NCBI RefSeq assembly: GCF_000003815.2
Contig: NC_049994.1
Coordinates: 14,648,319-14,712,318, forward strand
DNA length: 64,000 nucleotides
Direction of reading: 5' to 3'
From: Branchiostoma floridae
Taxonomy: Eukaryota; Chordata; Leptocardii; Amphioxiformes; Branchiostomatidae
Made by a program: the position numbers and the translations under genes. Shown here in pieces: positions 8,898-43,777 of the stretch. The notes under the pieces were generated by a model. The model saw nothing but the letters and a program-made list of their open reading frames with translations, did not search any database and was not told where the DNA came from. Each line of letters begins with the position of its first letter. Positions within the stretch are counted from its first letter, which is position 1.

Positions 8898-11800
8898 ATG
8901 AGGCTAGGAGGAGGCTTGGTGGCCCTGCTCCTGCTCGTCTGTGTACCGCCGTGGTGTGCGGGCTGGTGGTGGGGAGGCAAACCCCGGGGGTACCGCCCGG
9001 AGGGTCGGCGGGGGTTCCGCGGAGGAGACCGGCGCTTCGGGTACCGGCGTCACGGGTTCGGCCGTAGACCCTGGGGTAGGTGTCTTTCAAAACTTTACCT
9101 TTGTTTGTTTGTTTGTTTGTTTGTTTGTTTGTTTGAACCTTTATTTATTCATGAGAAGCTCTAATCGTCCAACAGGCCGATTGCCATTGAGGTTATGAGG
9201 GAGGAAAGGGTCAGATGAAATATAACACAGATACAGATTACATTGGGTCTTAATAAATCTTTTAACATATATGTATATCGCTTCACATACATAGTACAAT
9301 GCATATAGTAGGGCGAAACGTTCAGTGTTCATAGTCCGTGCCCGTTCGTTTCGTTTTATTTGTCAATACGGATATGTTTTCGGCGTATTTGTCTGTGTGT
9401 GTGTATGTCTGGCTGTCTCTGTCTGTGAAAAGCATAGCTCAAGAAGACGTGGATGGATTCTGATGATTTTTGGTAGGTGGGTTGGGGCTGGGAAGACGAA
9501 GGTCAAGTTCGATGATGGCCCCTAAACAGATTTCTAAGGTACAGCAGGGTAGAATGCCATGAACAAGGCGCAGATATTAGTCTTGGTGTTTAGTACTGCT
9601 AAAGAACTTGCCATAAATTGTTTGATTGATCAAAAGAATGGATGTTGTCTACGTCCATTTCTGCTCAATTGTTGTGTGATAAATTTTGATCGATTGATGG
9701 ATGGATGGATATACGTAAGACATCATTTTGTATCACTTTAAAGGGTAGTTTCTTTCCAATAATATCGATGTATGTATGTATGATAATGGAGATATGATTA
9801 ACCAATGCTAAGTCGAACATTGGAGTGTCTCGCAATGTACTTAACGTCCAGTACTGTAAGGATCCCAACTCTTTTGGATAAGTGTGGTGGGCTCTTTTAC
9901 GTGCTATATTTGTGGTTCTCCTCGATCAAACACGGCACCTATTTCTATCTTCCTATTCGAGGGAGTTCCCTAACCAAAGCTATATATATAGGTACTCATT
10001 TTCACTTGAATGAAGAGGAAATTCGTATAAGCTGTCTATCTTAGGGGCACAACGTCAGAGTATATCAAGAGACTTAAACCCAGAATCGCTGGGCTTTAAA
10101 ACAGACCGTTACGCGACCCAACACTAAATAACCACTTAACTTGACATGATAGATGATGGGATTTCATATGCATGATTATTTGGTGAGGGTATGGGGTGAA
10201 AGAGCTGGGGGTCTCCGGAACCAACTGGAGGGAATACGCCCAGAACAGATCAACCTGGCGTGAACTTTCCATGCCTGTAGCCGCTATGCATCAGACTTTG
10301 ATGCCTGCGAATGATTGATTGATGGGGCCGTGGGCCTATAGTTGTATGTCTTTCAAGTGAATTGCGCTTTTCTCAAGATTTACTTCTTTTTACATTCATT
10401 CAGAGCTATGCACAGTTTCACTTTTCAAACACAAGTTTGCTGTTTTCCTATTCAACATATTCCCCTAACAAAAGCCCAACAATACGTTTAGGCTTCAGAC
10501 ACAGAATAGGTATATCGAAAACCCCTTATTCTACAGTCTCTCAGCTCTAGGTATTTTAGGTATGTTTTGCCAAACTGTTTTAGGAAATCTTTACGAAGGA
10601 TTCCGAGAAAAAGGTGGCTAATTGGCGACATACCTTCCCTCGGGAACGTTCTGCCTTGGGCTGGTCGGTGTGTTCTATCGTCTGAAATGTACTGCGTGGG
10701 AGATGGTATTTACAAGTGAAAATATACGTTTCCGTTGTTTACTTAAACTTATAAGGGCAAGAAGTATTGCTTTTGGTTTGCCTTAGGCTGTTTGACATTT
10801 GTACTCTTATGACAAGTATGTGTTTTTCGACTGTCTGTTCGTAGAGGAGCCGGGTTCTCCGTGATAGTATGTGAATACAGTACAATACTGTAAATACATC
10901 TAACTAAGCCCGCGAGTTGGCGCTACCGCGAACTCAAAACCACCGCGAAATTAAATCTCTGCGAATTTAAAAACATTTACCATATGCGCAGTGCAGTGCA
11001 GTTTAGCCGACAGAGGAGTTTTATTCTACCGCGAAGACTCCTCTGCCCGCAAAATCTGCTTGGATATTACGCTGCATGACTGGGATGATGTCTGCCATCT
11101 CTGATTGTCTTTTTTTCATCCATGTACTGGGTTTATTATTTAGTGTGTCTGCTTTATCTTGTTGTCTTTTGGGGGGTCCTTTCCAGTGTGATTGGTTGAA
11201 AACCTACATGTCCTTTGGGCGCACATGGGGCAATAACTGTCGTATTGAGTCACCTGAGTTAGCCATAGAATGGCAGCCGCTCCAGACCCTTGTGATTTAT
11301 CCCTGCCTATTGTAAACTCATTACAATTCAGCCCCTGGATGCGAAGAGAGAGTAGTCGGCCCACCCAATAACAAATAACAATAACAATTGTTCTTGTGTC
11401 CATGCAGAGAAAAGGGTTTGCTTTCATGACCAAGTTCCGATACCGACGTTTCCCGAAAACGTGGACCAAGCCACCGCTGTTGTACGGAGCTATAAAGCCA
11501 TTCTGCGGTTTCCGGTCGACTTACCGAATGCAACGACATCTATCGACCTGAACTATAACCTCATCAACGGACTGGCCAATCAGACCTTGGCAAAACTGCA
11601 AGATTTGCAGGTATGTATTGAAATAAAAATTCCACCGTGAAATTTTGTTTCTGTGCAACTTTTGTGACAACGACGGTGCTATTGCCTTTCTTTTAGTGTG
11701 TGCCTGCATTTCTGTGAACATTACTGAGTGACAGTTTGGCAGTAACGTTATATAAGGTGTAAATGATGTAATAGGGTACTTGAGGAATTGAAAGTCAGGT

Positions 11801-14800
11801 TTGGCTCTGAACCAATGTTGTACACAGACAGTGAGTGAGTACACTTGAATGGAATGAATCGATTATGGCTGCTCCCACGCAGTAATGTCAAGTGGTCCGG
11901 GATGCAGTGTGATTTAGAGCTTGTTACAAATAATATTCAGCTAGTTGTATTAGACTCTTTTAAACGCTTGTTTTGTTGTATTCCCAACATTTTGAAGCTA
12001 GATTTGTAATATTAGATTAGATTACTTTACATTAGGTTAGATTTGATAATTGAAGGAAGATTCAGAATTTATGAGAAATTTTCACTGCACAGATTCTGTT
12101 GCTCCGACAAAACATGATCGCCCACATCGAACCAGACACATTCCGGCACGTCCCCAAACTCACGACTCTCGTCCTGGGTGGTAACCGTCTAACCGACTTC
12201 CCCTGGCGGCATATGCAGGTACTGTAAGACAACGTTGTATGATAGATAAGCTATGTAGTTCCACGTTGGGCTTTGGTCCCATTTGCGAAGCGGGGCCCGG
12301 TCGGTATGTTAACGTTTGCGAAACATGCTGACTATTTCTTAAAACTCCGTGTGTTTTGTTGCCTTTCTTATCATATACAGCATTTCGTTTCGGAAAGCTA
12401 CCCGGCCGGGTCCCGGGTTGGGGATTGGGACCTAGGCCTTACCACGCCTTCACCAAATGATTGTGAAGGTCTTGCTACTCACATATAACACTAGTTTCTC
12501 ATTTATCATGCAAACGAAATGTCTAATGAATTACACTTTCATTTCTCAGAGTTCAATTAAATTTGCCAGTGTTGTATTATAAGTACACATGTATTAAACA
12601 ATTGGATTATAGAGTTCCATTTCATCCAAAGGATTTAAATTATTGCTTACATGCTTGCTTGGTCAATTGAGTGGTTGGTTGACAGTTCTATAGGAATACT
12701 TGATTGAAATGGCAACTCTTTGTACCTTGTACCTAGGCACAATCGTTGCTGACGTACTTGGGTTTGGCCGGAAACCGTCTGACGTCACTTCCGACTGAAA
12801 CCTTCCGGTTCCTGCCTGCGCTGAAGGAACTGCGCATCGAAAACAACAAGTTAACCTCCATTCCTGAAGGAATCTTCAATGACCGGCCTTCGCTGGAAAC
12901 GGTAGATATGTTATTATGCGTAGTGCTTAGAGGAAACGTTCCCCGCTTGCTACGGTAGAACTGGCAAACCATCATCAGGCAATCAGGTCGCCGATTACGG
13001 CCAAGAGGCAAGGTGATTAGGTCGTAACCTTCCCTCCAACAATCTTATTGGTTGACAGCTGGCCATTGCTACGTTGGCATTGTTTGACATACACTACTCT
13101 CTAGGCAGAGGTTCACCTATTGTCCCAAATACTTGAGTTTGTGCTGAAGATCGAGCAAAAATTAAATTATCTTCCAGCAATTGGAATGATACTGATAGTT
13201 TTAAAAATGAGCTTTGCACAGTGCAAGGCCACATGGACCATGTCTCGTGTCGACACTGAACTAACTCACACTGTAGTAGCATCTCCTTATTCACCTTAAG
13301 TCAGAAACATTAAGCTTAGGCAAACTAGTCTTAATCTTGAACTGGCTTTGTTTAGAAAGCAATCGTCGTTGACCACTACTCAATCAGTAACAGTCTTGTC
13401 TCTACAAAGCTGTAGCGTAAATTCTACTGGAATCTAACACTGATCCGGTTACATTCATGTAGCCACCCCTTTCCCCCCATTATACATACTCTCCAAGCAG
13501 AGGTTAGGCTTCGGCTATTTTTTTAACGTTTTTTTAGTCGTTTTTATCGGGCTTTCTATTTTGTCATTTTTCTTGAAGTACGCCAGTTAGGTTTTGACAC
13601 AGCAAGATATAAAAAAAAAATAGAAAGCCCGATAAAAACGACTAAAAAAAACTTAAAAAACAACCGGAGCTTAACCTCTGCTTGGAGTGTAATCATATGC
13701 ATGTCATCGACACAAACTATGTTCTTGCAGGTGTACATGAGAGAGAATCCATGGCAGTGTGACTGTGGGTTCCTGTCGTCCTACAAGACCTTCCCATCGA
13801 AAATAACCCGCCTACACCCCTGCATGACCTGCGCTTCTCCCCAGGAATACCGCCAGATGTTGGTGTCGTCGGTAACCCCTGGTAAGGCTTAGGTCATCAT
13901 CATCATAGCGTTCCGTGCCAGTACTGCAGCCAGGCCACGGCCTTATCGTTAGCTTCTAGTAGGTCCTGGTTGGAGATGTTGGGGCCTAATACACAGTCCT
14001 TTGTAATGTGTCCCATGGTTTGCGTTGGGTGGCCACAACGACACTCAGCTGAGTTCACCCGTCCCCATTTCAGTAGGTTGTCTCTGGTCCTACCTACTCC
14101 GCACCTTGCTCTGTTCAGGTCCACCCATTCCCTTCTGGGTAGATGGGTGCCATGAGGAAGGGACTCACAAGGGGTCTGGAGAGCTTCATTTGGTAGGAGA
14201 GTGTCAGAAGCTTTCCAGCGATCGACTCTGTACTTGGCAGCCTCCTTAGGGTTCAGACTCTGTATGGTCATGAAGCTCTTTCTAGATTTGAGTCTTCTTC
14301 TAACATCATGATAGTAGTGTAGAGGGTGTCGAGAGTCCTGCTCTTGTACAAATTTCTGTACAAGGCTTAGGTCTCAATTGGAAAAAGGGACTTTTTTTGT
14401 GATCTCTAGCAGATCCTACGGTAGCAGATCCTACGGTAGCATAAGATAGTATCAAATCTGACATTGTCAATAATGTTTGATAATGATTCTCTTACTATTT
14501 CAAGCAAAAAGAATTGGGTGTCTGACTTCCAGCAGCGCAATTTGACCTACACACCTCAGGTCAGGTCAATTGTCCATGCAGGTTTTTTTCCTTCTCCCTA
14601 ACCTAACATTACTGGGTGTCGCCTGCAAAGTAATGATCACAATAATTTGAATTTTGGTACATATCTATATAAGACTTTATACTTGACATCTATGCTTCGA
14701 AATCTGAGCTGTGCTTAATATTTCTCGGTAAAGCCGAGGACTTATTGACAACCCCGCGTACATGTATAAAGTCTTATATAAATGTGTACCAAAATTCAAA

Positions 14801-16317
14801 TTATTGTGATCATTACGTTGCAGGCGACACCCAGTAACGTTAGGTAAGGGATAACGAAAAAAAGTGGACAATTGATCTGCAATCTGAGGTGTGCGGGTCA
14901 AATTGTCTGATCACACTTCACCCTTCTTTTTCTCGCCACTTACCCTCTAATTTAGAAAAAAAAACGAATGCCGGGAAAGTAACGACTCTAATGATTTGTA
15001 ATTTGGAGGGTATTTATAAAAGGCTTCATACTATGAAGTTGTGCCTCAAAATCTGAGCTGTGCTTGTTATTTCTGGTTTTAGGCGGAGAATTTATTGATC
15101 ACCCCTCGTACATGCATGTCCATTGCCCTAATGCTTTGGTTGCGGGCTGTTTCAGAATGCACCGAAGGCTCGGGCGAAGTTGATGAGACAAAGAATAACA
15201 CCGAAGGTTCGGGAGAGATTGAAGAGACAACCAATGACAACGTCAGCCAGAAGAATCCAGAAAACAGTGACACCGTGAATCTGTTGGGTGAAACGGCACT
15301 TCCCCGCAAATTCTGCCCACTTTGGCGCCCACGATGTCGCCGCTTTCATCAGGGTATTCATCGTGCATCATCACAAGAAAACGACGAACAGACCAAAATG
15401 ACGAAAACAGATACGAAGAAACTTGCCTCACCGCTTCTTTCCAACAAGCCTCTGTCCTATCTTTATGGAAACCAAGGCCAGTCCGCCAAGCGTTTGGAGA
15501 ACGACGGCAACGTAAACCCTGGACAAACAGTCAAGTCTACCACAAGGCCCATACCGAACACTCGACGACTGACCACTGATAGGGACGATGTCTTCAAGGG
15601 ACGTCCTGGCCAAGGACACCTGATTCAGCGATTTTGGCGTACACCAAAACCAAGCGATCAACCAATAGGGTCCCAGAAGACAGCGACGAGCGCCAATCAT
15701 CGCACCGATTCACTATCTACTCGACCAATGAAAAGGCTCGTTGTACAGCTACCGAGGGCTGGGGCATTTCATGCCATTCACCCGAAGACCATAGGTACCT
15801 TAAATCTCCCTAACATATTCTATTGATAGCTAGTAACTCCAAATTGAATGTAGTATTGTGTTATCAATGTGGTACCAATGTGAATTATGTATGACCTATC
15901 ATGCTAATGTCATGGTTTTGGTGTTATGTTTTCAGCCATCACTGTGGTACCGATGTGAATCAAATATGATCTATCATGCTAATGCCATGGTTTGGGTGTT
16001 ATACATTCAGCCATCATCGTGGTAATAATGTGAATTGAATATGACCTATCATGCTAATTCCATGGTTTTGGTGTTATATTTTCAGCCATCATTGCGGTCC
16101 TGGTCGCACTGGTGGGGGTTTCACCGCTCTGTGTGGCTCTCCTGAAGACCCTCAGGACAAAGAAACAGGAGAAGACTCAGACTGAGGCACCCACCGAAGT
16201 AGACGATGGCGAGATACAACCCTACAGTACCACGTATGTGGACAGGTTTCTCATTCGTAAAATCATGAGCAGAAGATAAAGAAAACAAACCCTTGATTAA
16301 AGGGAGAGGGTTCCTAC

Positions 16318-16369
<52 letters not shown>

Positions 16370-17187
16370 CTGGAGAGATGCATGCATATTTCCCAATATG
16401 TAGATGCTATTAAACAAGGTGCAAATTTCATGATTGTTTCCTTGCTCTATATGTTTTAAATAAAAATAAAGTTTTATTGCAAATTATATGTGAATGGCTC
16501 TTACAATATCTACCTTCTGATCATTGTAGGTACCTGTCGAAGATCAACATCTCGGAATCTCCGCTCCCAAAACCACCCCAGCTGGCGAGTGGTTACTCCA
16601 ATCCTGCCGACCTCACCATCGTCCGGCAGACATATGCCGAACCTTACTCCACTCAAACTAACCCAAAAGGGCAAATCAACACCTCAAATGGCGACCCCAA
16701 GACCAGTTTGAACATACACGGTCCAGAAGCAGAAGACGTCTACGAAGATGCCGTGCCGGTGGTGTTCAAGATAGGACGATTTCCAGCCGAAGAGATGGAA
16801 GGAGAGCTACTGGACAAGTTGAACAACGAGCCTTTCCGCCTCGAGCAGGCAGCCAACAGCCTTCAGGCCCAGGCTGCCCAGACCCGTCAGTCATCGGATC
16901 AACTGAACCAACCATTCTATCACACGATTGCCGCGTGTCCTCCAGGTGAAGCCGCCAGTCCATCTGCCTTTCGTGAGGAGACAGACGAGTACGGAGAGGT
17001 CTGGAACTGCATCGGCAGCGCTGAACTGGAGAAGGAAGGAAACCAGGAGGCGACTGGTCTTGGGATGAAGGGAGGGCCCCAGGCGGAGATGGAAGCCAAC
17101 ATGGACTACTACTACCAGCAGCTGATCAAGCCTCACATCTACGAGAAACCGGAAGTCGTCATCGCCAAGCTCAAGCTGAAGACTTAA
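8898..17187 (+). CDS. Receptor A: LRR single-pass membrane protein with tyrosine-motif tail (755 aa)
   Basis: The family is not recognised. Exons: 8898-9075, 11408-11610, 12093-12218, 12737-12901, 13731-13881, 15156-15794, 16086-16233, 16530-17187. Phases agree at every junction (2268 nt, 755 aa). Order: signal peptide (VALLLLVCVPPWC), Arg/Gly-rich spacer (RRGFRGGDRRFGYRRHGFGRR), LRRNT-like segment, about five LRRs (such as LGLAGNRLTSLPTETFRFLP), LRRCT (NPWQCDC..., fourth Cys in the next exon), stalk with two EGSGE motifs and an NNT sequon, then TM helix AIIAVLVALVGVSPLCVALL and a basic stop-transfer. The tail holds IQPYST, TYAEP, VYEDAVPV and a C-terminal block MKGGPQAEMEAN...IYEKPEVVI. The ATG is the only good start before the signal peptide; an acceptor at 8883-8884 implies a non-coding upstream exon. 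There is no enzyme domain, so signalling would need recruited kinases and adaptors (inference). Paralog B lies downstream. Confidence 0.88.
9099..9136. repeat. (TTTG)n microsatellite
   Basis: About eight to nine tandem TTTG units start 24 bases after the donor of receptor A exon 1. Confidence 0.95.
9385..9525 (+). repeat. Microsatellite-associated element with conserved core
   Basis: A GT-rich stretch is followed by a core with gctcaagaagacgtggatgg and a tail gggaagacgaaggtcaagtt. Related cores occur on the minus strand at about 31190-31350 and, more distantly, three times at 23030-24060. The layout resembles invertebrate microsatellite-associated elements of the CvA/pDv type; this family link is from memory of their general form and is not verified. 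Confidence 0.55.
9955..10130 (-). repeat. tRNA-derived SINE, reverse orientation, in intron 1 of receptor A
   Basis: Read on the minus strand, an A-box-like TCGCGTAACGG and a B-box-like GGGTTTAAGTCTC are followed by a tail with gacgttgtgcccctaag. The order is head then tail, as in tRNA-derived SINEs. The family name is not established. Confidence 0.45.
13491..13687. mobile_element. Fold-back MITE, CTCCAAGCAGAGGTT family (full copy)
   Basis: The arms are about 75 bases long. The left end starts CTCCAAGCAGAGGTTAGGCT and the right end closes with cctctgcttggag; inner arms carry tagaaagcccgataaaaacg and its complement. Shorter or diverged copies occur at 24886-24969, 37901-38022, 46358-46454, 52503-52641 and 57771-57918. 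There is no coding capacity. Confidence 0.85.
13895..14361 (-). mobile_element. 5'-truncated non-LTR retrotransposon (reverse transcriptase C-terminus) with target-site duplication
   Basis: The minus strand encodes the C-terminal part of a LINE-type polymerase ORF with the familiar C-terminal pattern ARCGVGRTRDNLLKWG followed by a Cys/His cluster CRCGHPTQTMGHITKDC. The frame stays open from about 14361 to a stop near 13903 and is followed by a (TGA)n-like 3' tail. Direct repeats AAGGCTTAGGT at 13884-13894 and 14362-14372 flank it exactly, as expected for target-primed insertion. The catalytic RT domain is missing through 5' truncation. It sits 13 bases after the donor of the receptor A LRRCT exon. 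Confidence 0.88.
14535..14912. mobile_element. Large palindromic element in receptor A intron
   Basis: Arms of about 150 bases are inverted: cctaacattactgggtgtcg...gatcacaataatttgaattt on the left matches its complement on the right (about 14790-14850), and outer flanks with acctcaggtca / tgaggtgtgcgggtc also pair. The central part (about 14694-14765: aaatctgagctgtgctt) has a diverged direct copy at about 15048-15117, next to the following exon. Confidence 0.75.
15048..15117 (+). repeat. Diverged copy of the palindrome centre just before a receptor A exon
   Basis: It shares aaatctgagctgtgctt and the sequence around ttattga.c.ccc.cgtacatg with 14694-14765. It overlaps the apparent ATG at 15095, which argues that this ATG is repeat-derived intron and that the exon begins at 15156. 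Confidence 0.65.
15861..16085 (+). repeat. Three 75-bp tandem repeats, each ending in a 3' splice site
   Basis: Three head-to-tail copies share gtggta..aatgtgaat (starts 15869, 15944, 16019), gacctatcatgctaat and an acceptor-like ttcag|ccatc (AG at 15934-15935, 16009-16010, 16084-16085), all exactly 75 bases apart. Only the last copy leads into the transmembrane exon in the right phase and with a helix-coding frame. Confidence 0.9.
16319..16369. repeat. (GT)n microsatellite in the last intron of receptor A
   Basis: An uninterrupted GT run of about 25 units lies in the intron between the transmembrane exon and the last exon. Minus-strand poly-Thr/His frames are artefacts of it. Confidence 0.97.
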
Positions 17188-18360
17188 AGTCGTAAGAAGA
17201 CAAAAACAGTCTTGATGCATTTTTGTGATGGCATATCACTTGCAGTGCTTATGTGTACCGTAGTGTTGTTATTTCTTCTTTTTGACTCCAAATGCGGAGT
17301 CTTAGTGTTCGGCCTGTGTGTTTGAGTTGGTGTGTGTTTCAATACAATGTCAAGAGAGTAAGAGGAAGTTAGCGGGAGATGATCTCAAAATTCAAGATTG
17401 GCCGGAAGTACAGTTCAGAGGTGTTAGAGCCAGTTTTTCTCTTCACAACACTTCATGCATTTGATTATTACATACCACTTTACTTAGTATATCCAGTGAG
17501 ATCCTAGTCACAGGAAGTACACACACATTGAAGGACTACAGATTGTGACAATCATTTCCAGAGTAATCAACTATGTATTTTCATAGACCGCCTGGTTTTT
17601 GTGTTGTCTTGTGTGTCCTGCCGATGGTTTACTTTTTTCTAGACGCCTCGTCGTACATGGCGATCAGAGTAAGTAGTATTTCACGTTACCATTGCTCTAT
17701 ACATTAACGTGATGGCTGAAAACATACCTACGTATACCTGTTTTTGCCTTTGCCTCATCTCATTGTATTCAATTCAAGATTATGTGATCCCTCTTTCTCA
17801 TCTAGTAATACCTAAGCGTAGTTTGACGTATTTTGTGTTTGTGCCAAAGAATACATGTACCATCACACTTCAAGGCCAGAGAAAAACTAGACATGTCTGT
17901 AAAAATACTGATTAGAAATAGCCAATCCACAGTATAGATACACACTTATATCACACAGCGTAGCCAATTCAAAGAGACCGAGGAACGTTGACATTGCACT
18001 CAAGTAACAAATCCTCGACGCTGTAGAACATTTGAATGTCAAAGTAAAATAGAAAAAGGAATGATGTAAACACGACCAACAGTCACATGCGAGTCGTGAA
18101 AGAGCTCACTACAAGGAGCATTACGTTATGGATTACATACATAATCAAGCATACAATAGCTATACAATTAACACAATGTCTGGCAACACTAATGACAGAG
18201 GATCTTGACCTGATACCTGTACTTCTCATTTTCAAATCAGTCTCTTAGTGTAGAGGGGAAGACCACAAACTCTTTCTAGAGGGACTCCATAGAGTGCTGA
18301 ACAGTGTGTTTATGTCACACTGACTGTAAGATGTGTAGGTTGCGTGAAACAAGCAATAAA
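17188..18360 (+). other. Probable 3' UTR of receptor A
   Basis: Non-coding sequence runs from the stop codon to a canonical AATAAA at 18355-18360. No better signal is seen closer to the stop. The end is inferred from this signal alone. Confidence 0.4.
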
Positions 18361-20302
18361 CGGCACATTCTGACGTCGACGCACCTCGTGGATAAATCAG
18401 TCTATGTGTGAATGGTGTACACATTTGTATGAACCGCCACTATGATGTTATTAATTCAAATAGTTGTTCTAGATACAAAATCAGCTTATAGACAGCAAAA
18501 GCACAATACAACAGTCATAAATAAAAAATCTCAGAATTACTAGTAACGAGCCGCATGGGATTGTAGGTAATGTCAAAGGTAAGGAGGCTTCTCGGAGTAA
18601 ACAAACATGGAAACGCTGCAAACACAAAATGAGTGACCTGAAACTTTGACCTTACAGTAATTCTTCCCGAGCGGGATCAGATATTGTCTTCCCCCGTAGA
18701 GCTTTGATCTGCTGTCGTCCCTATCACTGGAAAGTTTTATGGCTTAAGTCCGTCATTGATAGTCTTTTTTTATATTTCGATTTTCTGCTTTTTTTGTATT
18801 TTGTGCTTGCCAGCAGAAATTCTAAAAAGAGAAGAGAAGTTTTCTCATTCGATTTCTGTTAAACATGCCAATCGTTAATCCAGCCAAAAGGGCTGCAATT
18901 GTTGGATTGTGGGAGTGTTTTCCCGAAAAAAAAAGTCATGAAGGTAAATTTTGAGATACGTGTGTATACCTTTGAAAATATGTCACTGTTAGAAGAAAAA
19001 TTCTATTAACTGTGCTCATACGTGACTAACGAATCTCTTCAGCGATATTCATAACTCCACGTTTTGTATTCAAACCCCTTTAGTAGCCTTCGGTGTGATA
19101 AAATACTCAACGAAATACCCAAATTTGGGAATATGGCGGTAGTTTTGTAAGATCTTGTAGCGTTCAATATTGACACACCGGGCTAGGCTCTGTTGGGGTA
19201 CATTAAAACGAAGTCAATAGGAATCCATGCTTCATCGGATATTCATAGATTGCTTACGTAAGCTTGCAGACAAATTAAATGTACATGAATAGCTGTTCTT
19301 CATTCATTGCTGTAGACCTCGCTGGGGAGAACGCAGGAAGGCAGGTAAGCAGATAGTAGACTATATTTAAGATTTTGCCATATTTTCAACAACAACATGC
19401 ATGCAGCACAGAAAAATCGTACTGAATTTCGAAGAGTCTTCTTATATTTGTAAGACCTTGTAAACGTATCAAATTTTCTCCGCAAAGTAACGTAGTGGTT
19501 TGAGAATTATTGACAACATTTTGCAAAGGTTGTTACGTGTATGCCATCGTCATATACATATTTGTCTAGATATCAGAAAATCTTAAGCACCACTAGTTAT
19601 AGTTTTTCTGAAAAAAAAAGATGATTTTCACTAAACCGGGCGAAAACGACTCACAGTAGACAAAAAAAATGATTGGCCGGTTGCTGTTAACGTTTGAACT
19701 TCTGAAACCCTGGACTTCTAAAACCTGTTCTCTACATATTTGTGAAGACGAACCGAACTTCGCGTGCTCAAAAATTCTTCGTCTTTCTGAAGACATCTTT
19801 CGTACAAAATTGGCCCATGTTTTGTGTCACGTTCCCCTCAGTTTGGTGCACGTTTTTCCCAAACAATACGTTAACTTAACGTCTATTGTACCAAAGCGGT
19901 TGGATATTGCTTTTTCATCCTTTTTTAAAAGTCGCGGTTCAAACAGTAGCAATCCGGTGTGGGCGTGACTGGAAAAGGATCATGAAGCTTTGTAACAAAG
20001 AATTGCTTACTTCTTATAAGCACCTGGTGGATTATTATTCTCCCTATAATAGTCAGCATAGTGTCTGGTAGAAACTAACTTTAAGCCATGGTCCACTGTT
20101 TATTAGGCTTGCCAAAAAGAGCTGGGAAATTTTCCCCGTACAATGAACCTATAATTATAAATACTGTACGTATCGTCTGTCTTCTCTGTCACAACCAGTG
20201 TAAGAATAGCTCTTCAGTGAGCTAAACTGGCCAGAAAGCAGTTGAACTGTTTTTCTGTGAAAAGAAAAGCTAATTGAGTTCGTTATTTGTTTGCGTTGCA
20301 GG
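18361..20302. other. Intergenic region between receptors A and B
   Basis: I see no coding sequence with family resemblance. An acceptor-like ttgcgttgcag ends at 20301, immediately before the receptor B start codon, so the 5' UTR of B probably begins in a separate exon within or upstream of this stretch. Confidence 0.4.
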
Positions 20303-23300
20303 ATGAAGCTAGGCGGAGGCAGAGTCCCTGCTCTCCCGATAGCTCTGTTCCTCCTGCTCTGTGTAACGCCGTGGTGCGATGGCGGTAAACGCGGCGGCCA
20401 CCGTAGACACGGGGGCCGGTACGGAGGACGCCATGGACGCGTTGGTGGTACGTAACGTTCAGTGTTGTTACTCTGTGAGGGAGGGTAGCCTCCGACGACA
20501 GAGTATTGTTGTTGGTAGCTGGAATGAGTTTTCGCATCTAGCTGTATCTCTATGTTCCATTTTCGTTTGTAGTTTGGCATGTTGTCTGCACTCCAGTCGC
20601 GCGATGATGAACGTTGTTTTTGTTCGCGGTCGCTGTTATAATCGATGTACACATACATAAATACATACACATTCATACTCTTAACAAGTTGAAGCATTGT
20701 AACATGTAATAATATCAAAAATCACCCCTTTATTCCTGGTGTTGTGGAACAGTCCATATGGTTTCGTGGCTTGGTAAAGAGATGCTGTTACCGTTACAAT
20801 GTAACACCATGGAGTGGTCTTCGGGTCACACCTTGAAATGACCTTCAGGTCTTGTTAAGTGGTGACCATTAAAGTAAAAAGATATACATCTTTGAATATT
20901 TTAACACCCAGGAAAGTGCGTGGTCGCAAACGGAATGACCTACCGAGGGACTGTCTCTGTGACCAAAAGAGGCCGGACGTGTCAGCGCTGGGACAGTCAG
21001 ACACCTCACCAGCACCCCTGGACACCTGCGAAGTACCCAAAAGCCGGGCTGGAGCAGAACTACTGCCGGAACCCTGACGGCGAAACCGAAGGAGTCTGGT
21101 GTTACACCACTGATCCTGGCCACAGATGGGAGTACTGTAACGTACCAACCTCTGGTAAGGCTAACGTCACATTTCTACTAAGGGTCACTTTTGTGTTTTA
21201 TCAACAACAACAAAAAAACAATTCAACATAGTCAACCCATTCCATATATTGGGCCCAGCCGGGCTGTTTGTGGAAGCGAAAAATAGACATGCATACGTAG
21301 AAATATACACAAATAATGCCAAGACTATTCTCTTTACCTCTTGTACAGTCTCGTTTAGATCATACTTTACGTTCCCGAAAGCTGCCCCGAAATGTGACGT
21401 AGGCCAAAGGACTAAGGCTAACGTCACATTTTCACAAAGGGGCTCGATCGGGTAGCTTTCTGGAACGATAAGTATGATATTTCAGGCAACAAAATCACAG
21501 AACGGACCAAAAAACAATTCAACGGCATGCCTTGTGCATATTCATTGGTATTGAAGGCAACCTAAGCAATATTACAGCGTCAAAGTGGAAATATTCTGAA
21601 TAAGGCAATCTGCATGATATTGACATCTACTGCACTGTATTCTCACATTTACATCGTAATTTGATACTTTGAGCGCTTAAAAACAGCCCAGAGAAAAGTT
21701 GCACGAGGATATTCCCTTATTATTGTACCCCCCCCCCCAAAAAAAAATAAGGACCTGATCTGGAATCCTTGTGCAACTCATTCCCGCGCTGTTTTTAACG
21801 GCTCAATTTATGAAATGAATTTTATGATGTAAATGTGCTAACATAGTGCATTAGATGTCAATACTATACCAACTGCCTTATTCAGAATATTTCCACTTTT
21901 AACAATGTGATATTGCTTAGGTTGCCTTTAACTTTGATTTGTCGTTTCCACAACAGTCCGCCGGCTGGGCCCCGGGTAGGAAATGTGACGTAGGCATTAG
22001 CTATAGGCTTACGTCACATTCCCAAACCTGGGCCCGGCCAGGCTGTTGTGGAAACGAAAAATAGAAATGTATACGTAGAAATATATCCACAAATAATGCC
22101 CACAAATATTCTCTTTACGCCTTGTGTAGTTTGGTATCTTCGGTCACCGACTCAGTAGTATTAACGCTAGTTCACCTTTATCCGTGGGGTAACCTATATT
22201 CGTTGTATCTAAAACAGGTATTTGGGGATATCAAGTCAACGGACGGTGATTTCAAATTACAATATTTTAAATATATATTTTCAAATTATTGCAGTTTGAA
22301 ACCACCGTTCGTTGACTTGATATCCCCAAATACCTTGTTTTTAAACAACGGATATAGGCTACCCCGCGGACTAATGTTACGCAGAAAGGTTCCCATACAT
22401 TTCTGCTGTTTGATTCTGCGTTTTGAATATGAAGGACGAACCAGATAGGTTTCGGGGAAGTCAGACTAATCTGATTAAGGTTTAAAGTGGCGTGTGGAAT
22501 TGTTTGTGAGGCGACGTGATCATAATGAAAGAGCTGCGCATGCGCAGTTATAAAACCTGACTACGTCTCCAGAATTTTCAGTGAAAAATATTAATGTTTG
22601 ATTTTTTGCTCCTGCCCCCTTGTTAAAGACACTAGCCCCAGTCTTGTGTAGTTTGGTGTCTTTTATATCATACTTTCCGCTCCCGAAATCTACCCGGCCG
22701 GGTACCGGTTTGGAAATGTGACGTAGGCCTCAGTGGTCGCCTACTTGGTGGTATTTTCCGCAAACAAAAGTATCCATACATGTTATTGCTGTTCCATTCT
22801 GTATTCTAAATGTGAAGGCCAAACCAGATCGGTTTCGGGGGAGTCAGCAGACTAATCTTACTAAGATATGAATATTACTGTGTCCAATTCGTTGAATAGA
22901 ATTGTACTATAAATACATGAATATCGGTTCCTTCTTTCTGTGTTTGTGTGCGTGTGTGTGTGTGTGTGTGTGTGAGAGTGTATGTGTGTGTGTGTGTGTG
23001 TGTGTCTGTGTGTGTGTCTGTGTGTGTAAGTGTGTGAACAAGATAACTGAAGAACGGCTGAATGGATTGGTTTCATACCTGGTGTGTTGGGAGGATGTAA
23101 TAAAAGCTGGAAATGGTTTGATTTTGCGCTCCCTCGCGGCTTCTATTGGTACTGCAGCGTAACTTCCGGTTTTGCTATCTCTTCGTTTGTATCATTCTGT
23201 GTTTCAAATGTGAAGGACAAACCAGATCGGTTTGGGGGGGAACTCAGCAGACTAATCTTACTAAGATATGAATATTACAATATCCAACTTTTTGTATAGA

Positions 23301-23368
23301 ACTGTACTGTAATTACCACCATGAATATTCGTGGTGGTTATATTTTCACTAGCGTTTATGTGTGTGAG

Positions 23369-23400
<32 letters not shown>

Positions 23401-26134
23401 AGTGTGTGTGTCTGTGTGTGTGTGTGTGTGTATGAACTAGATAACTGAAGAACGGCTGGATGGATTGGTTTCATACTTAGTTTGTTGGGAGGATGTAATA
23501 AAAGCTGGAAATGGTTTGATTTTGTAATCTCCAAGCAGATTCCTCCGGTGGCATAAAACAGTAACATAAGCTGGGGAAGTACTTCGGCCGGCAGAGGGGT
23601 AAAAGTGGCCATCGCGGTGGCCAATTTTACCCCTCTGGTATGTTGGGAGGATGTAATAAAAGCTGGAAATGGTTCAGTGATTTTGCGCTCCCTCGCGGCT
23701 TCTATTGGTACTGCAGCGTAACTTCCGGTTTCGCTATCTCTTGGTTTGTGTCATTCTGTGTTTCAAATGAGAAGGACGAACCAGATCGGTTTCGGGGGAG
23801 TCAGCAGACTAATCTCACTAAGATATGAATATTACAATGTCCAATTTTTTGTATAGAACTGTACTGTAATTACCACCATGAATATTCATGGTGGTTATAT
23901 TTTCACTAGCGTTTATGTGTGTGAGTGTGTGCGTGTGTGTGTGTGTCTGTCTGTGTGTGTAAGTGTGTGAACAAGATAACTGAAGAACGACTGAATGGAT
24001 TGGTTTCAGACTTGGTGTGTTGGGAGGATGTAATAAAAGCTGGAAATGGTTTAATTTTGCGCTCCCTTGTGGCTTCTCTTGGTACTGCAATGTAACTTCC
24101 GGTTTTGCTATCTCTTGGTTTGTATCATTCTGTGTTTCAAATGTGAAGGAAGAAGCAGATTGGTTTCGGGGGAGTTAGCAGATTAATCTGACTAAGATAT
24201 GAATATTACCATGTCCAATTCGTTTTATAGAATTGTACTGTAATTATTGTATAGTGTTGTATTGTGTTGTGTTGTTAAGCTACCGTCACATTTCCAAACC
24301 GGGGCCCGACCGGGCTGTTTGTGGATAGGAAAAAATAGACATGCATACGTAAAAATATACAGAAATGATGCGCTCGACTATTCTCTTTGCGTCTTGTGTA
24401 GTTTGATAAAACATGTAATACTTTTCGTTCCCGAAAGCTTCCCCCAATTGGAAATGTGACGTAGGTCTAACTGTAGAAATATCAAACAACTACAAAACGT
24501 TGTAATCATGTCCTTTTATATTTAGGAAACCTGTTTGGCAGGCGTCGCGGGGGCTTGCGATTTCTTAGGAACGACTGGGTCAATTCCCCGACTGCTTATT
24601 TCCGACCTCATCAAGCATTATTTCAGTTTCCAACCGACATCCCCAGTNNNNNNNNNNNNNNNNNNNNNNNNNNNNNNNNNNNNNNNNNNNNNNNNNNNNN
24701 NNNNNNNNNNNNNNNNNNNNNNNNNNNNNNNNNNNNNNNNNNNNNNNCGAAGCATTGGATTCCTATCCATATCGTTTCAATGTAATACCAACAGTACATA
24801 GCCCGGTGTGTCACTACTGCAGCGAACCCAGATCTTACAAAACTAACCCCATAATCTCAAACAGACGGTTTTTCCGGGCGCATTCTAAAAAAATGACAAA
24901 ATAGAAAGCCCGATAAAAACGACTAAAAAAACGTTAAAAAACAGCCGGAGCCTAAACCTCTGCTTGGAGAGTAGAATAGCCGGCCAAAGGGAGATAGCCG
25001 GCTAAGGGAATCAAACGGGCACTGGTGCCGCTATACTAAGTCCCTGGCCAGCTTTGATACTATTTCTAAGGCACCGTTGGGTCTGCTTGGAGACTAATGT
25101 TTCCACAAAGGGACCCGGTCAGGCAGTTTTGGGGAACGAAATGTACGAGATAAAAGACATCAAAAACAAAAATGGACCAAAGCTAACTCAACAGCATTCC
25201 TTGTGCATATTCATTAGCATTGAATTTAATTTTTGTTTCCGCAAACAGTCCGTCCGGGCTACGGATAAGAAATGCGACGTAGGTTGGTCAGTTAGANNNN
25301 NNNNNNNNNNNNNNNNNNNNNNNNNNNNNNNNNNNNNNNNNNNNNNNNNNNNNNNNNNNNNNNNNNNNNNNNNNNNNNNNNNNNNNNNNNNNNNNNNNNN
25401 NNNNNNNNNNNNNNNNNNNNNNNNNNNNNNNNNNNNNNNNNNNNNNNNNNNNNNNNNNNNNNNNNNNNNNNNNNNNNNNNNNNNNNNNNNNNNNNNNNNN
25501 NNNNNNNNNNNNNNNNNNNNNNNNNNNNNNNNNNNNNNNNNNNNNNNNNNNNNNNNNNNNNNNNNNNNNNNNNNNNNNNNNNNNNNNNNNNNNNNNNNNN
25601 NNNNNNNNNNNNNNNNNNNNNNNNNNNNNNNNNNNNNNNNNNNNNNNNNNNNNNNNNNNNNNNNNNNNNNNNNNNNNNNNNNNNNNNNNNNNNNNNNNNN
25701 NNNNNNNNNNNNNNNNNNNNNNNNNNNNNNNNNNNNNNNNNNNNNNNNNNNNNNNNNNNNNNNNNNNNNNNNNNNNNNNNNNNNNNNNNNNNNNNNNNNN
25801 NNNNNNNNNNNNNNNNNNNTGACTTTCGCCTGTTCTCCCAAAAATATTTACACACAATAAATGTAATGAATAATAATTGCTGTATGTTTCTGTGCAGGTT
25901 TACATGAAGGGAAATCCATGGCAGTGCGACTGTGAGTTCCTGTCCGCCTACAATACCTTCCCTCCCGCCATCACCCTGCAGCTGTCGAACCCGAGCATGA
26001 CCTGTTCATCGCCTTGGCAACACATGAACCAGCTTGTGTCAATGGTTGCACACGGTGAGCAGAAGTGTTGAAGCTAGCTTTATAACGATAAGGGCAGTGT
26101 CAAAATCCTACCATACAGACGGTTGGAAACAGGG

Positions 26135-26180
<46 letters not shown>

Positions 26181-29100
26181 NNNNNNNNNNNNNNNNNNNN
26201 NNNNNNNNNNNNNNNNNNNNNNNNNNNNNNNNNNNNNNNNNNNNNNNNNNNNNNNNNNNNNNNNNNNNNNNNNNNNNNNNNNNNNNNNNNNNNNNNNNNN
26301 NNNNNNNNNNNNNNNNNNNNNNNNNNNNNNNNNNNNNNNNNNNNNNNNNNNNNNNNNNNNNNNNNNNNNNNNNNNNNNNNNNNNNNNNNNNNNNNNNNNN
26401 NNNNNNNNNNNNNNNNNNNNNNNNNNNNNNNNNNNNNNNNNNNNNNNNNNNNNNNNNNNNNNNNNNNNNNNNNNNNNNNNNNNNNNNNNNNNNNNNNNNN
26501 NNNNNNNNNNNNNNNNNNNNNNNNNNNNNNNNNNATGCACCGTGCACCTATTTCCTTACTTTACTCATGTGAGAATGAGTCTCTACCTTCTGTTATCATT
26601 ATAGTGATATATGTAGTTTTCTTCAGTTTTCAATGGTGTACAGACGTACAATGTTTTCTATAGTATCTTTAGTGGCTCGAGCTCAGGGAAGTTTAAATGA
26701 TAGTGACAGTGGATCTGTCTAACAGTAATCCAAATGTACTGTCATTAGATATACACACGCGCTTTAACGTTTCAATTTCCATCCAGTTTCAGGATGCACC
26801 AAATCGTATGTCTCAAATGGAATTGAAAAGGGCACGAATATCAACGGCTATAACAAGAATAAAGAAGGGGTCAAGAATCTCTTGAAGACACGGCGACCTA
26901 ACCTACGTCTCCAGAAGAAAACATCTCAGCCATTACCACAAATACGTCCCCAACCGACTGTCCGTCTTAAACCCACCACAATGCAGACGACAACTCAGAA
27001 CGACTATCAAAAGAATCTGGACATTGACAAAGTTCCTTCTAGAAAACCACGGGACAACAGGGAAAACAAAAATCCGAACCAACGGAAAACCTTTCCCTCA
27101 TTTTCATCCAACCGTCCACAGCCTGTCACAGAGATGGCTGGAGGTCCACGGGTTACGGCAGAAGAGGGGAAGTTCATCACGACAACTCGACATGGCTATC
27201 GGAAGAATCCACACATTGGCAAAACCGCTTTCAGCAAACTGGCCACTGGTCGACTGGTTACAGCAGAAGAGAGGACCAAGATGACAACCACAGAAAGCAC
27301 CAGACGTGACGGCACTACATCCTTTGACGTCGACGCCATCCGGACCTCCACGCTGGCCCGACATTACAGTCAGTCCACCGAGCCATTTACGGACAAGAAT
27401 CACGGAACTCTAGGTCAGGACGCCCCAACAAGCCAACGGACCACCTCCGAATGGCCAAAGTTTGGTGCTAGACCAACTGACAACGACCCAGTCTTTGCAC
27501 AAGAATCCTCGGACAAGGCTCGTGGAACTCTTGAACATAAAATGCTAACAAACCGACCGACCACCTCCGAATTGCCAAAGCCTGATGTTCATCCAATCGA
27601 CAACGATATGAATCCAGACCAAGACCTGTCCAAAACAAACGACACAATTACAGGCTCTCCTCAATACCCGGCAACAAGTGCTGTCACCTCGGCTACTCTG
27701 AAACTGTTGACCCCTTTTCCGTCAGCTCGACTAATGAAAAAGCACTACGTTAAGATGTCCAAGACGACAACATACGGTGCTACCGAAATACAAATCATTG
27801 GTAAGTTAAGTGTGAAAATTTCTTACATGTTTTGATTTGTGACTTATAAAGAATTTTCAGGGTTCTGATCATGATAGTCTACAGATAGACAAGATCATTA
27901 TTGCAGTGAATTGTTTGGCTTTTATGTCAATGGTTGATGATACCTACAAATCGTGTTTTCATCAAAGCCCCTGTCACACATGTACATAGCCAACCATGGA
28001 TTCCAGACCTTCTCCATAGCTGGGAGCTAGTCGTGAGCGAGGTCATGTGTGATTTGGACTTGGTCAGTTTATAATAACGAATCTTGTAGATAACACCTTT
28101 TGATATTTCTTCTCTTTACTATTGTTCCTAAGGCGTGAGCGTGGGTCTGGTGGCGCTGATAGTGGCTGTGTCCTGCACTGCGGTCGTGCTGAAGTTGGTC
28201 CGGTCAAAACAACCGGAGTCGAAGGAAACCATCGATGATGACGATGTTGATGATGACGACATACAACCCTATAGCACCAGGTGCGGCAAACAGTATATTT
28301 CCTGTCGTGAAATTTCGGTAAAAGGGATAGAAGGAAGCCAATTTATCATATGATGTACTAAAACCGTTAAGACCATACCATGCTGATTGTGATATTTGAT
28401 TGTGTATATTATTATGCTGCTTTTTATAATTCACATCATTATTTGTTATCATTGCCGGGGGAATAGAACAATGTATTTTGTCTAGCCACCCCTCAACCAA
28501 GCACAAGTTCTTCTTTTGCTCTGTTGATCTTTCGTAAATTGATTTTGAAATCAAACTTTAAAGTATAATGTCGACAACGTAACTGAGATACACCCGGAGA
28601 CGCTTATGTGATGTTTTACATTCACTGATCATTTCAGGTACCTGGCATCCATGTCGGCATCTCCCCCCAGCCAACGGTCACAAACAGACCACTACTACCT
28701 TCCCGCAGACCACCACATCGTTCGGCATACTTATGTAGACCCGAACTCTCCCGATTCAAACCGACGTGACGGGAAGACCGGAGTCACCCGTAAAGACGGC
28801 GTTCAAGCCTATCTCATGCACAAGCTGAAACTGCGCGGACCACGACCAGGGGAAGGCTACGAAGATGCAGTGCCGGTAAAGGCCACACCTAACCGCTCCA
28901 AAAATCTGCCGGTGACGCCCAAGACAGATCGGCGCCATCCTGAACAAGCAGAAGGAGACTACGAAGAAGCGCTAACCGTGCACGTCAAGGAAACTCGCTC
29001 CAAGAATCTACCGTTGACACCGAAACCAGGTCGGCACCATCCTAAAGAAGTTGGAGAGCCACAGGAAATCTATAAAGATGCTGTCCCGGTGTACGCCAAG

Positions 29101-29742
29101 CCCAACCGATCCAAGAGCCTACCAGTGACGCCCAAGACAGGTCGACGGTACGACGGAGAGTTCGGCGAGCAAGGAGGACACTACAGTGATGCCGTACCGG
29201 TGTACGCCAAACCCAACCGGTCCAAGAGTCTACCGGCGCCGCCCATGACAGGCCGATGTCAGCCTGAGGACACCGGAAAGCCAGGAGACTACGTATACGA
29301 GGAAGCCGTGACAGTGTCCGCCAAGCCTCACCAACCCAAAAACCTACCGTTGACGCCCAGGCCAGGCAGACGTCAGGCTGGAAAGACCGGAGATCTACCA
29401 GGCAACATGCGAGGCTCCGCCAACCCGAACAAGCCAAGCGTAGACAAGACCAACAGTCTACCCCTGGCTATCACCAAGCCTGCCAGCTCCAAGAAGCAAT
29501 CTGAGCCACAAAAGAAGTCAAGGAGTCTGAAGATGACCAACCTAACGGCCATTGATGAGGAGGATCACGAGTATGAGGACACCTGGAGCTACAACCATGC
29601 CGCTCAGAACGATCTCGGGATGAAGGGAGGACCCCAGGCGGAGATGGAAGCCAACAAGGACTACCATCAGCTGACCAAGTCTAACATCTACGAGAAACCA
29701 GAAGTCGTGATTGGCAGTATCCAGCTGTCGGATGGAGTGTGA
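20303..29742 (+). CDS. Receptor B: kringle + LRR single-pass membrane protein with repeated SH2/SH3-ligand tail
   Basis: Paralog of A; not a recognised named gene. Visible exons: 20303-20447 (signal peptide and Gly/Arg/His-rich spacer), 20912-21154 (kringle), 24526-24647 (basic segment and LRRNT start, cut by an N run), 25898-26054 (LRRCT, NPWQCDC), 26793-27800 (fourth LRRCT Cys, then Thr/Pro/Lys-rich stalk), 28133-28280 (TM helix GVSVGLVALIVAVSCTAVVL, acidic DDDDVDDDDIQPYST) and 28638-29742 (tail). Phases match those of A; the TM exon is 148 nt in both. LRR exons matching A 12093-12218 and 12737-12901 should lie in or near the gaps. In the tail, TYVDP is followed by five acidic-Tyr plus SH3-ligand modules and the C-terminal block ending IYEKPEVVI. 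The stalk has two similar blocks around RTTSEWPKF/PTTSELPKP and an NDT sequon. The role is inferred to be a cell-surface receptor that docks adaptors. Confidence 0.86.
20912..21154 (+). other. Kringle domain exon of receptor B (phase 1-1)
   Basis: This 243-nt exon encodes almost one kringle: GKCVVANGMTYRGTVSVT, RTCQRWDSQTPHQH, LEQNYCRNPDGE, GVWCYTTDP and RWEYCNVPTS. Five of six kringle cysteines are present. The last one, normally about four residues after EYC, reads TS, so C1 lacks its usual partner. Both flanking introns are phase 1, making the exon a symmetric shuffling unit. Kringles bind proteins, lysine or glycans, and this one lies between the basic spacer and the LRR domain. Confidence 0.93.
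21236..21455. mobile_element. MITE-like element, GGGCCCGGCCGGGCTGTTTGTGG family
   Basis: The element carries gggcccagccgggctgtttg, gaaaaatagacatgcatacg, tattctctttac and ends near aaatgtgacgtagg. Related copies are at about 21960-22130, 22670-22740, 24280-24465 and 33195-33310. The gtgacgta / tacgtcac ends form inverted repeats. Confidence 0.65.
21553..21935. mobile_element. Large hairpin element with ~170-bp arms
   Basis: The left end aaggcaacctaagcaatatt pairs with the right end aatgtgatattgcttaggtt. The aaagtggaaatattctgaat and attcagaatatttccacttt segments also pair. The centre carries a C13 run followed by A9 at about 21728-21750. No coding capacity. Confidence 0.8.
22180..22372. mobile_element. 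Hairpin element with ~80-bp arms
   Basis: The arm with ggtatttggggatatcaagt is almost perfectly inverted at 22288-22371; a short AT-rich loop separates the arms. The pairing extends outward to ggggtaacctatat / atataggctacccc. Confidence 0.85.
22429..24250 (+). repeat. Tandem array of a ~380-560-bp unit with internal GT microsatellite
   Basis: The motif gaaggacgaaccagatcggt recurs (with substitutions) at 22429, 22812, 23210, 23770 and 24143. Most units then carry gactaatcttactaagatat, a (GT)n run, a gataactgaagaacggctg core and aaaagctggaaatggttt. Unit length varies through microsatellite length and an insertion in the 23210 unit. It fills receptor B intron 2. Confidence 0.85.
23525..23640. 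mobile_element. Small insertion with a 20-bp hairpin, flanked by duplicated sequence
   Basis: It begins with ctccaagcagattcctccgg and ends with a hairpin (23590-23637): cagaggggtaaaagtggcca against its complement with one mismatch and a six-base loop. The flanks repeat gttgggaggatgtaataaaa on both sides (about 23484 and 23641). Confidence 0.65.
24648..24747. other. Assembly gap (100 N)
   Basis: Exactly 100 unknown bases interrupt the LRRNT exon of receptor B. By comparison with A (203-nt exon) about 81 coding bases are missing. The round size suggests a placeholder length. Confidence 0.98.
24886..24969. mobile_element. Half copy of the CTCCAAGCAGAGGTT MITE
   Basis: It has the right arm only: tagaaagcccgataaaaacg, then ggagcctaaacctctgcttg. 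No left arm is seen. Confidence 0.7.
25297..25819. other. Assembly gap (523 N)
   Basis: Unknown bases lie where receptor A has its two middle LRR exons. Those exons of B are not visible in the flanking sequence. Confidence 0.98.
26138..26534. repeat. (TC)n microsatellite running into an assembly gap
   Basis: A TC run from 26138 to 26180 continues directly into 354 N (26181-26534), which suggests the repeat broke the assembly. It lies in the intron after the LRRCT exon of receptor B. Confidence 0.95.
28849..29390 (+). repeat. Five tandem coding repeats in receptor B tail (Tyr + SH3-ligand module)
   Basis: Units start at tyrosine codons 28858, 28960, 29071, 29182 and 29296, so spacing is 102, 111, 111 and 114 nt (34-38 residues). 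The tyrosine motifs are YEDAVPV, YEEALTV, YKDAVPV, YSDAVPV and YEEAVTV. Each is followed by a basic/proline motif: KNLPVTP, KNLPLTP, KSLPVTP, KSLPAPP and KNLPLTP. All five fit K-x-x-P-x-x-P, the class I SH3 ligand pattern. Receptor A has one such tyrosine motif and no such K-x-x-P-x-x-P partner directly after it. Confidence 0.92.
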
Positions 29743-43000: not shown

Positions 43001-43777
43001 ATGATTTTCGTGAGTGTAACGAAAAACGAAAATACCACTCACTGTATTCTGTACCTTGTTTAAATCTTCCTTTACACAGCACTTCTCACAACCAAATTAA
43101 ATTCTACACTCTCTGACCGAAATTTCGACCCTCCGAACAAAAATATTCTATGTCCGACACTAGATCTATTAGCTTAAACCAAGGAGCTTTTATCAAGCTC
43201 CTTGCTTAAACTTGGTCATTCTCCTGAACATTACAAATTCCAATTTGCAAGGCGACTAGTGTATACGTCTGTATGGTATTCACCTAGGCCAAGTAGAATA
43301 GCATACGAAAAAAGACCTCCTCTGTGACTGATAGAAATTGGAATTTTTCTGTTTGACATATTAAAAAAAATGCGTGCCTGTTCTATCAATTTTAACGCCC
43401 AAATACATACTGCATGGCGTATGGTATGTATTTTCTTCGTGGCTTGCTGTGACGGAACACTGTAAAGCCCGCAAACCTGTTACGGGCAATTTGGATGTCT
43501 TCTCGGTAAAATACAAATTTTCCATCGTTCACCTCCGTACAAAATGACACGTAAAAGTCGCTCAGAAGTCGAAAAAAACTAAACTAGTGCTTTAGATTTG
43601 CATTACAAAATTGGCAACACTGCTAGTGTGGTGAACATGAATGTTCTTGGTCATCTGGAGTGTAATTCTCGAAAATCAGTATACCGAGCTTTGGAGAAAA
43701 ACAACACATTTTCGTCCCCAAAGAAATTAGCGTCTTTCGTTCCCGTCAAATTATTCATGGCAACCGGTGACTTTCAG

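Follow-up and report, generated by a model that had tools for sequence, protein, structure and literature searches.

What kind of receptor do two adjacent genes in a 64,000-nucleotide (nt) stretch of the Branchiostoma floridae genome encode, and how did one of them come to carry a kringle? The stretch, referred to here as the window, is contig NC_049994.1, positions 14,648,319 to 14,712,318 of the forward strand; coordinates below count from its first letter. A preliminary description, made from the sequence alone, had proposed that the two genes, here called A and B, encode leucine-rich repeat (LRR) receptors with adaptor-docking tails. Our reading, to which we give a probability of about 0.5, is that they are tandem genes for predicted single-pass LRR receptors with Crk-type tails, known so far only from lancelets, and that a kringle exon was inserted in B ahead of its presumed LRRs.

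A tandem pair of predicted receptor genes

Genes A and B are same-strand tandem paralogues with homologous tails. The adjacent pair first described is real, its exons, splice sites and phases having been rebuilt from the window. Intron phases agree wherever both genes are readable. Several likenesses noted earlier were recovered as well: both transmembrane (TM) exons are 148 nt long (16086-16233 and 28133-28280), the first exons are 29/55 identical, and IQPYST, MKGGPQAEMEAN and IYEKPEVVI are common to the two genes. A tblastn comparison of A with B matched the tail at an expect value (E) of 9e-14 and the LRRCT-like exon at E 6e-12.

Gene A runs through eight coding exons from the ATG at 8898 to a stop codon ending at 17188. 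The rebuilt product is 755 residues long, reproducing the length first reported. All introns are GT-AG, with phases 1, 0, 0, 0, 1, 1 and 2.

8898..9075, + strand: exon 1, coding for a predicted signal peptide and an Arg/Gly-rich spacer
11408..11610, + strand: exon 2, coding for a non-canonical N-terminal cap and the first LRR
12093..12218, + strand: exon 3, LRR, phase 0-0
12737..12901, + strand: exon 4, LRRs, phase 0-0
13731..13881, + strand: exon 5, LRRCT-like cap (NPWQCDC...)
15156..15794, + strand: exon 6, extracellular stalk, for which the fold prediction has no confidence
16086..16233, + strand: exon 7, TM segment and IQPYST, 148 nt
16530..17188, + strand: exon 8, cytoplasmic tail with three YxxP and one YEDAVPV

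By hydropathy A has a single signal-peptide-like segment and a single TM segment, the latter followed by the long tail. An intron of the gene also holds, on the - strand at 13903-14373, a 156-residue open reading frame (ORF) containing CRCGHPTQTMGH; Pfam gave it no match at E<=0.01, and we take it to resemble the C-terminal end of a retroelement reverse transcriptase.

Gene B, on the same strand, has seven visible exons between the ATG at 20303 and a stop codon ending at 29742. Its readable intron phases are 1, 1, (gap), 1, 1 and 2, and each readable splice site is canonical.

20303..20447, + strand: exon 1, coding for a predicted signal peptide and a basic Gly-rich spacer; its donor is in phase 1
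20912..21154, + strand: kringle exon, symmetric phase 1-1
24526..24647, + strand: cap exon, ending in a run of N
24648..25819, no strand assigned: gapped stretch with runs of N at 24648-24747 and 25297-25819, the presumed place of the LRR exons
25898..26054, + strand: LRRCT-like exon, identical to that of A at 28/50
26787..27800, + strand: stalk exon
28133..28280, + strand: TM exon, 148 nt
28638..29742, + strand: tail exon, with five units in tandem, each of about 37 residues, then the C-terminus common to A and B

A third run of N, at 26181-26534, is in the intron after the LRRCT-like exon. The two visible pieces of B together show one signal-peptide-like and one TM segment, as in A. LRRs in B itself are suggested by the flanking exons and by relatives of B that have them (P0005 and P0006, introduced below). 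The intron between the kringle and cap exons (21156-24480) contains several short terminal-inverted-repeat-like copies, such as the one at 24273-24480, and a repeat family with a spacing of about 370-560 nt.

The LRRNT-LRR-LRRCT order proposed for both genes held in part. LRRs are present in A (Pfam LRR_8, E 1.1e-24); none are visible in B, where the stretch is gapped. The N-terminal cap is no canonical LRRNT: it lacks the LRRNT cysteines, with one cysteine in A and none in the visible part of B, and neither gene gave a Pfam LRRNT match at E<=1. At the other end the LRRCT cysteine pattern NPWxCxC...C...C is seen in both genes, and A aligns to LRRC15 into this cap, yet Pfam found no LRRCT match in A or B despite the pattern.

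We also considered an AlphaFold2 model of P0001, a relative 92% identical to A (six sequences; mean predicted local distance difference test score, pLDDT, 41; predicted template modelling score 0.31). LRR strands fall at residues 104, 128, 152, 176, 200 and 224, a spacing of 24 residues, with block-mean pLDDT of 67-89 over residues 101-230. A helix at 486-515 coincides with the TM segment at a pLDDT of only about 41-54, and the stalk and tail show no confident structure. By this model of its relative, A is predicted to have a tandem 24-residue LRR solenoid, and the LRR_8 match agrees.

Relatives among the lancelets

Protein searches picked candidates by common five-residue words, a procedure that distant relatives may escape. 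With A as query, 98 matching proteins were returned (7,995 candidates scored). The six that cover at least 38% of A are all from Branchiostoma: P0001 and P0003 from hybrid assemblies, P0002 and P0005 from B. lanceolatum, and P0004 and P0006 from B. belcheri. Coverage by the remaining 92 does not exceed 31%, and LRR domains are listed for them. With B as query there were six matches, and the tail was matched in P0005 (B. lanceolatum) alone; the remaining five have a coverage of 7-9% and kringles in their listed annotation. Tail matches from the searches with A and B were thus confined to Branchiostoma, and the A tail, used as query against the whole genome (513 Mb, 431 contigs), found the A and B loci only at E<=1e-3. 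Within the limits of these searches the restriction to one lineage that had been claimed is supported. A vertebrate orthologue of like architecture, which would have spoken against it, was looked for in the protein searches and none appeared. P0002 bears the automatic name ISLR2; we rejected that orthology, Pfam giving LRRs and no immunoglobulin (Ig) domain in P0002.

Judged by alignment and identity, not by tree, P0001-P0004 are A-type, and P0005 and P0006 are B-type. A-type and B-type proteins occur in both B. lanceolatum and B. belcheri, and therefore both paralogues likely existed before the split of these lancelets. The tandem arrangement was likely kept in B. belcheri, because the locus tags of P0004 (Bbelb_266220) and P0006 (Bbelb_266210) are consecutive and the contigs given for the two have the same length. 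As predicted proteins, P0006 has the B-type exon 1 continuous with LRRs and with a stalk of B type, and P0005 connects LRRs, LRRCT, stalk, TM and tail. The public B-type gene models look incomplete: P0006 (Bbelb_266210) has no TM segment or tail, and P0005 no signal peptide.

Conserved tyrosines in the cytoplasmic tails

Seven tails were aligned, those of A, B and P0001-P0005; P0006 was excluded, its C-terminus departing from the family. Of the 44 invariant columns, tyrosines take a disproportionate share: 6 of the 12 tyrosines in the A tail are invariant, vs 38 of the 233 residues of other kinds (Fisher p 0.0096). YxxP sites, each with an invariant proline at +3 in 7/7 tails, account for three of the six (Y[SY][NL]PAD, Y[AV][ED]P and IY[ED]KP); the other three are PYST, the YEDAVPV type and YxxxW. 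YxxP counts were also compared with those of shuffled tails, with uncorrected p values of 0.07 for A, 0.057 for P0001, 0.02 for P0002, 0.03 for P0003, 0.004 for P0004, 0.04 for B and 0.0005 for P0005. The conservation of the tyrosines is a stronger argument than this enrichment.

In the tail of B a unit of about 37 residues, best seen as YKDAVPVYAKPNRSKSLPVTPKTGRR, recurs in tandem, with five copies in B. floridae and four in P0005 of B. lanceolatum. Among A-type tails, A, P0001, P0003 and P0004 have one YEDAVPV-type site each and P0002 has three. The units themselves vary in content: KxxPxxP, an SH3-type consensus, is in 5/5 units of B and 2/4 of P0005; RSxSxP, a 14-3-3-type consensus, in 2/5 and 2/4 (0.01 expected in each tail); and YAKP in 2/5 and 3/4. 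The docking-type tails first proposed are in outline supported by the six invariant tyrosines, the three YxxP and the repeated unit of B.

We read the output as Crk-type because YxxP is the Crk/CrkL SH2 consensus and the tails of DCBLD1 and DCBLD2 bind the CRKL SH2 domain; once phosphorylated, the tails of A and B would likely recruit Crk-type adaptors. Recognition of pYxxP by Crk is pre-metazoan, a choanoflagellate Crk already having it, according to part of PMC5043372.

It is possible, if on balance doubtful, that the tails act mainly through the SH2 domains of Grb2, Nck, Src-family proteins or phosphatases, or through 14-3-3 (RSKSLP), and not through Crk-type adaptors. The YST, YEDAVPV and YxxxW tyrosines are as invariant as the others without being YxxP, RSxSxP appears twice each in B and P0005, far above expectation, and the amphioxus LRR receptor FrLRR acts through Grb2, as stated in part of PMC10199209. 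Half of the invariant tyrosines are nevertheless YxxP in every tail, and the Grb2-type YxN is found in 4/7 tails only, at no constant place (YSNPAD in A, P0001 and P0002; YWNP in P0004). Neither YxN nor the immunoreceptor tyrosine-based inhibitory motif (1/7 tails) nor YxxM (3/7) reached p<0.05 against shuffled tails.

Proposed mechanism and role

Under the Crk-type reading, the short LRR solenoid, joined in B by the kringle, would bind ligand and cluster the receptor. A Src- or Abl-family kinase would then phosphorylate the conserved tail tyrosines, Crk-type adaptors (and possibly others) would dock at the three YxxP sites, and the docked adaptors would drive Rac/actin remodelling for adhesion or engulfment. 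With its array of units B would give this output a higher valency, and through the kringle it would bind with a second specificity. Phosphorylation, adaptor, ligand and cellular role are all putative; for the biological role the nearest precedent is FrLRR.

A role of the pair in cell adhesion or neural wiring, after the manner of FLRT, LRRTM and the Nogo receptor, in place of immune recognition or engulfment, seems to us somewhat improbable. The best solved-fold matches are LRR domains, among them those of a plant receptor, FLRT2, the variable lymphocyte receptors (VLRs) of lamprey and hagfish, Slit2, GPIb-alpha, the Nogo receptor and LRRTM2. The presence of FLRT2, Slit2, LRRTM2 and the Nogo receptor among these near folds would suit such a role, as would the discussion of the Crk-docking DCBLD2 as vascular and neuronal in part of PMC6029619. 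Such matches are, however, generic for LRRs: the best is the plant receptor, and the VLRs stand among the rest.

The kringle exon of gene B

The kringle that had been reported for one of the two genes is in B, where Pfam matches Kringle (PF00051) at E 1.6e-28 and the six-cysteine signature is present. Its alignment with plasminogen kringles spans the whole module, and it appears to retain the lysine-site residues Asp, Glu, Trp, Arg and Trp. The kringle would likely give the B receptor a second binding head. The domain is encoded by a single 243-nt exon, phase 1 at both ends, inside a phase-1 intron, and would presumably be spliced into the B mRNA.

Kringles are abundant in this genome. A search gave 544 candidates, of which 150 were scored, every one at E<=8.2e-27; the class has at least 150 copies, matched in single open frames and many of them clustered. 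The scored kringles other than B's own are at most 77% identical to it. We read 31 kringle loci of 3.2-10 kb each, a non-random set made up of the 11 best matches and, from 114 clusters ordered by contig name, the first 20, with splice sites chosen by a simple scoring script and not from RNA. The loci yielded 42 kringle rows, including 5 repeats from overlapping loci; of the 37 distinct kringles, 4 were without callable sites on both sides. Among the remaining 33, 29 are phase 1-1, the exceptions being two 1-0, one 0-1 and one 1-2. The gtaagg donor of the B kringle recurs in 26 of 36 callable rows, duplicates included.

No kringle was found in intron 1 of gene A at E<=10 (tblastn). The B. belcheri protein P0006, which is B-type and starts with a signal peptide almost identical to that of B, continues directly into the LRR cap with no kringle. 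The marks of a 1-1 shuffled exon are present in the module, its phase, a phase-compatible host intron and the same module elsewhere in the genome; as to the orthologous intron in a relative, the evidence is at protein level, the predicted protein P0006 being without the kringle. Because the class has at least 150 copies, mostly 1-1 like B's, and because A and P0006 are without a kringle, the exon was likely inserted ready-made into B by exon shuffling, a gain and not a loss. Exon shuffling in phase 1-1 is described as unusually frequent in lancelets relative to the other animals examined (part of PMC4284660).

Kringle plus LRR is not supported as a trait of the family: A and P0006 have no kringle, and no protein among the matches listed for the A, B and kringle-LRR queries has both domains. 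The last of these queries gave 884 matches, of which 120 were listed; multi-kringle proteins dominate, and for none of the 120 does the listing show PF00051 together with an LRR family. Near the kringles themselves, 0 of the 31 sampled loci match A's LRRs (tblastn, E<=1e-3), a result that says little on rarity, the sample being non-random. Regex candidates for LRRs at one of these loci proved to be low-complexity repeats only. A transposon origin of the kringle donor was considered and rejected as well: terminal-repeat-like sequence begins at 21156, yet the same donor is common among the sampled kringles, and the overlap is likely a coincidence.

We consider it unlikely that the exon is a passenger in B's first long intron, spliced rarely or not at all, with both genes encoding plain LRR receptors. 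A genome with at least 150 kringle exons could supply such a passenger, and the listed matches, with no kringle-LRR protein among them, and the direct junction of exon 1 to the LRR cap in P0006 would both fit. A relic would be expected to decay, however, whereas the B kringle is on the gene's strand with its frame intact, has canonical sites whose phases both suit the phase-1 host intron, aligns with plasminogen kringles over its full length and carries the common gtaagg donor.

Weighing the reading

Several points weigh against the reading of A and B as Crk-coupled LRR receptors, one with an inserted kringle. In the ectodomain of B, tblastn with A found no LRR match between the cap and LRRCT-like exons outside the runs of N, and to call the stalk and tail disordered would be to interpret low model confidence. 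In the tails, A taken by itself is weakly enriched in YxxP (p 0.07), half of the six invariant tyrosines lie outside YxxP, the SH3-type KxxPxxP is no constant of the tail, and SH2 specificity read from a consensus is loose. The exon junctions of both genes are those of predicted gene models. As to the kringle, no listed protein combines it with LRRs, and its absence elsewhere is drawn from the paralogue and from one imperfect model, P0006, whose C-terminus departs from the family; P0005 is without exon 1. That gene B is an assembly artefact, unrelated pieces joined across its three gaps (two after the cap exon, one between the LRRCT-like and stalk exons), is very improbable, given that exon 1, cap, LRRCT-like, TM and tail exons each resemble A's in the same order and that P0005 and P0006 connect overlapping B-type parts in two other species.

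A narrower scenario, which we hold more tentatively than the reading as a whole, is that one shuffled kringle exon made B of B. floridae a dual LRR-kringle receptor, that A and the counterpart in B. belcheri have remained plain LRR receptors, and that the tail consists of repeatable Crk-docking units whose number differs between species. If this is true, the locus would be a natural with-and-without experiment on how lancelets swap ectodomain exons over a constant Crk-type output. It also offers a concrete, testable case of shuffling in which the module, the host intron, a kringle-free paralogue and the relatives are all identified.

Other features of the window

43583-44440 and about 51787-52149, + strand: homeobox gene resembling Mnx; the downstream ORF has a partial Homeodomain match (E 8.4e-7), and the upstream ORF (43583-44440) has no Pfam match
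60758-61150, - strand: match to the GIY-YIG catalytic domain (E 1.2e-4), which we take to be possibly a fragment of a Penelope-like element

Comparison with known receptors

The components of these receptors are each known, and lancelets have a well-documented record of domain shuffling. Neither the combination nor the family was found in the open-licence literature, covered mostly at listing level, where no listed paper reports an LRR-kringle receptor or this family by its title or the start of its abstract.

ISLR2, whose name P0002 carries, likewise has a short LRR domain, a TM segment and a tail. It has an Ig domain between the LRRs and the TM segment, unlike P0002 and A, in which Pfam finds none.

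Kringles occur in ROR/NRK and LRRs in Trk, separate proteins as presented in part of PMC2772990. The amphioxus kringle-bearing adhesion G-protein-coupled receptors are, like B, lancelet receptors with a kringle; unlike B they are seven-pass, and the part of PMC2246102 that describes them names no LRR with the kringle.

DCBLD1 and DCBLD2 offer a parallel for the tails. Like A and B they are orphan transmembrane receptors with conserved YxxP in the tail, and their intracellular YxxP bind the CRKL SH2 domain after phosphorylation by Fyn or Abl (part of PMC6029619); 14-3-3 binding is reported too (parts of PMC6029619 and PMC8015000). They differ in having a CUB/LCCL/discoidin ectodomain and seven (DCBLD2) or eight (DCBLD1) intracellular YxxP (same portions of PMC6029619 and PMC8015000), whereas the tails of A and B have three invariant YxxP and a separate YEDAVPV unit. 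Pfam matched no CUB, LCCL or discoidin domain in A or B, and DCBLD1 and DCBLD2 were absent from the search matches.

FrLRR of B. belcheri is reported to bind bacteria, with phagocytosis requiring both its parts, and to act via Grb2 (part of PMC10199209). Its resemblance to B is in plan: a small extra N-terminal domain before a short LRR solenoid, varying between lancelet species, with exon shuffling invoked in the same part of PMC10199209. Unlike A and B, it is described there as having a folate-receptor domain and a predicted glycosylphosphatidylinositol anchor, as lacking a cytoplasmic tail, and as made by readthrough of two genes (PMC10199209). Pfam matched no folate-receptor domain in A or B. 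Both, unlike FrLRR, are predicted to span the membrane with a TM segment, and both have a long tail rich in tyrosine.

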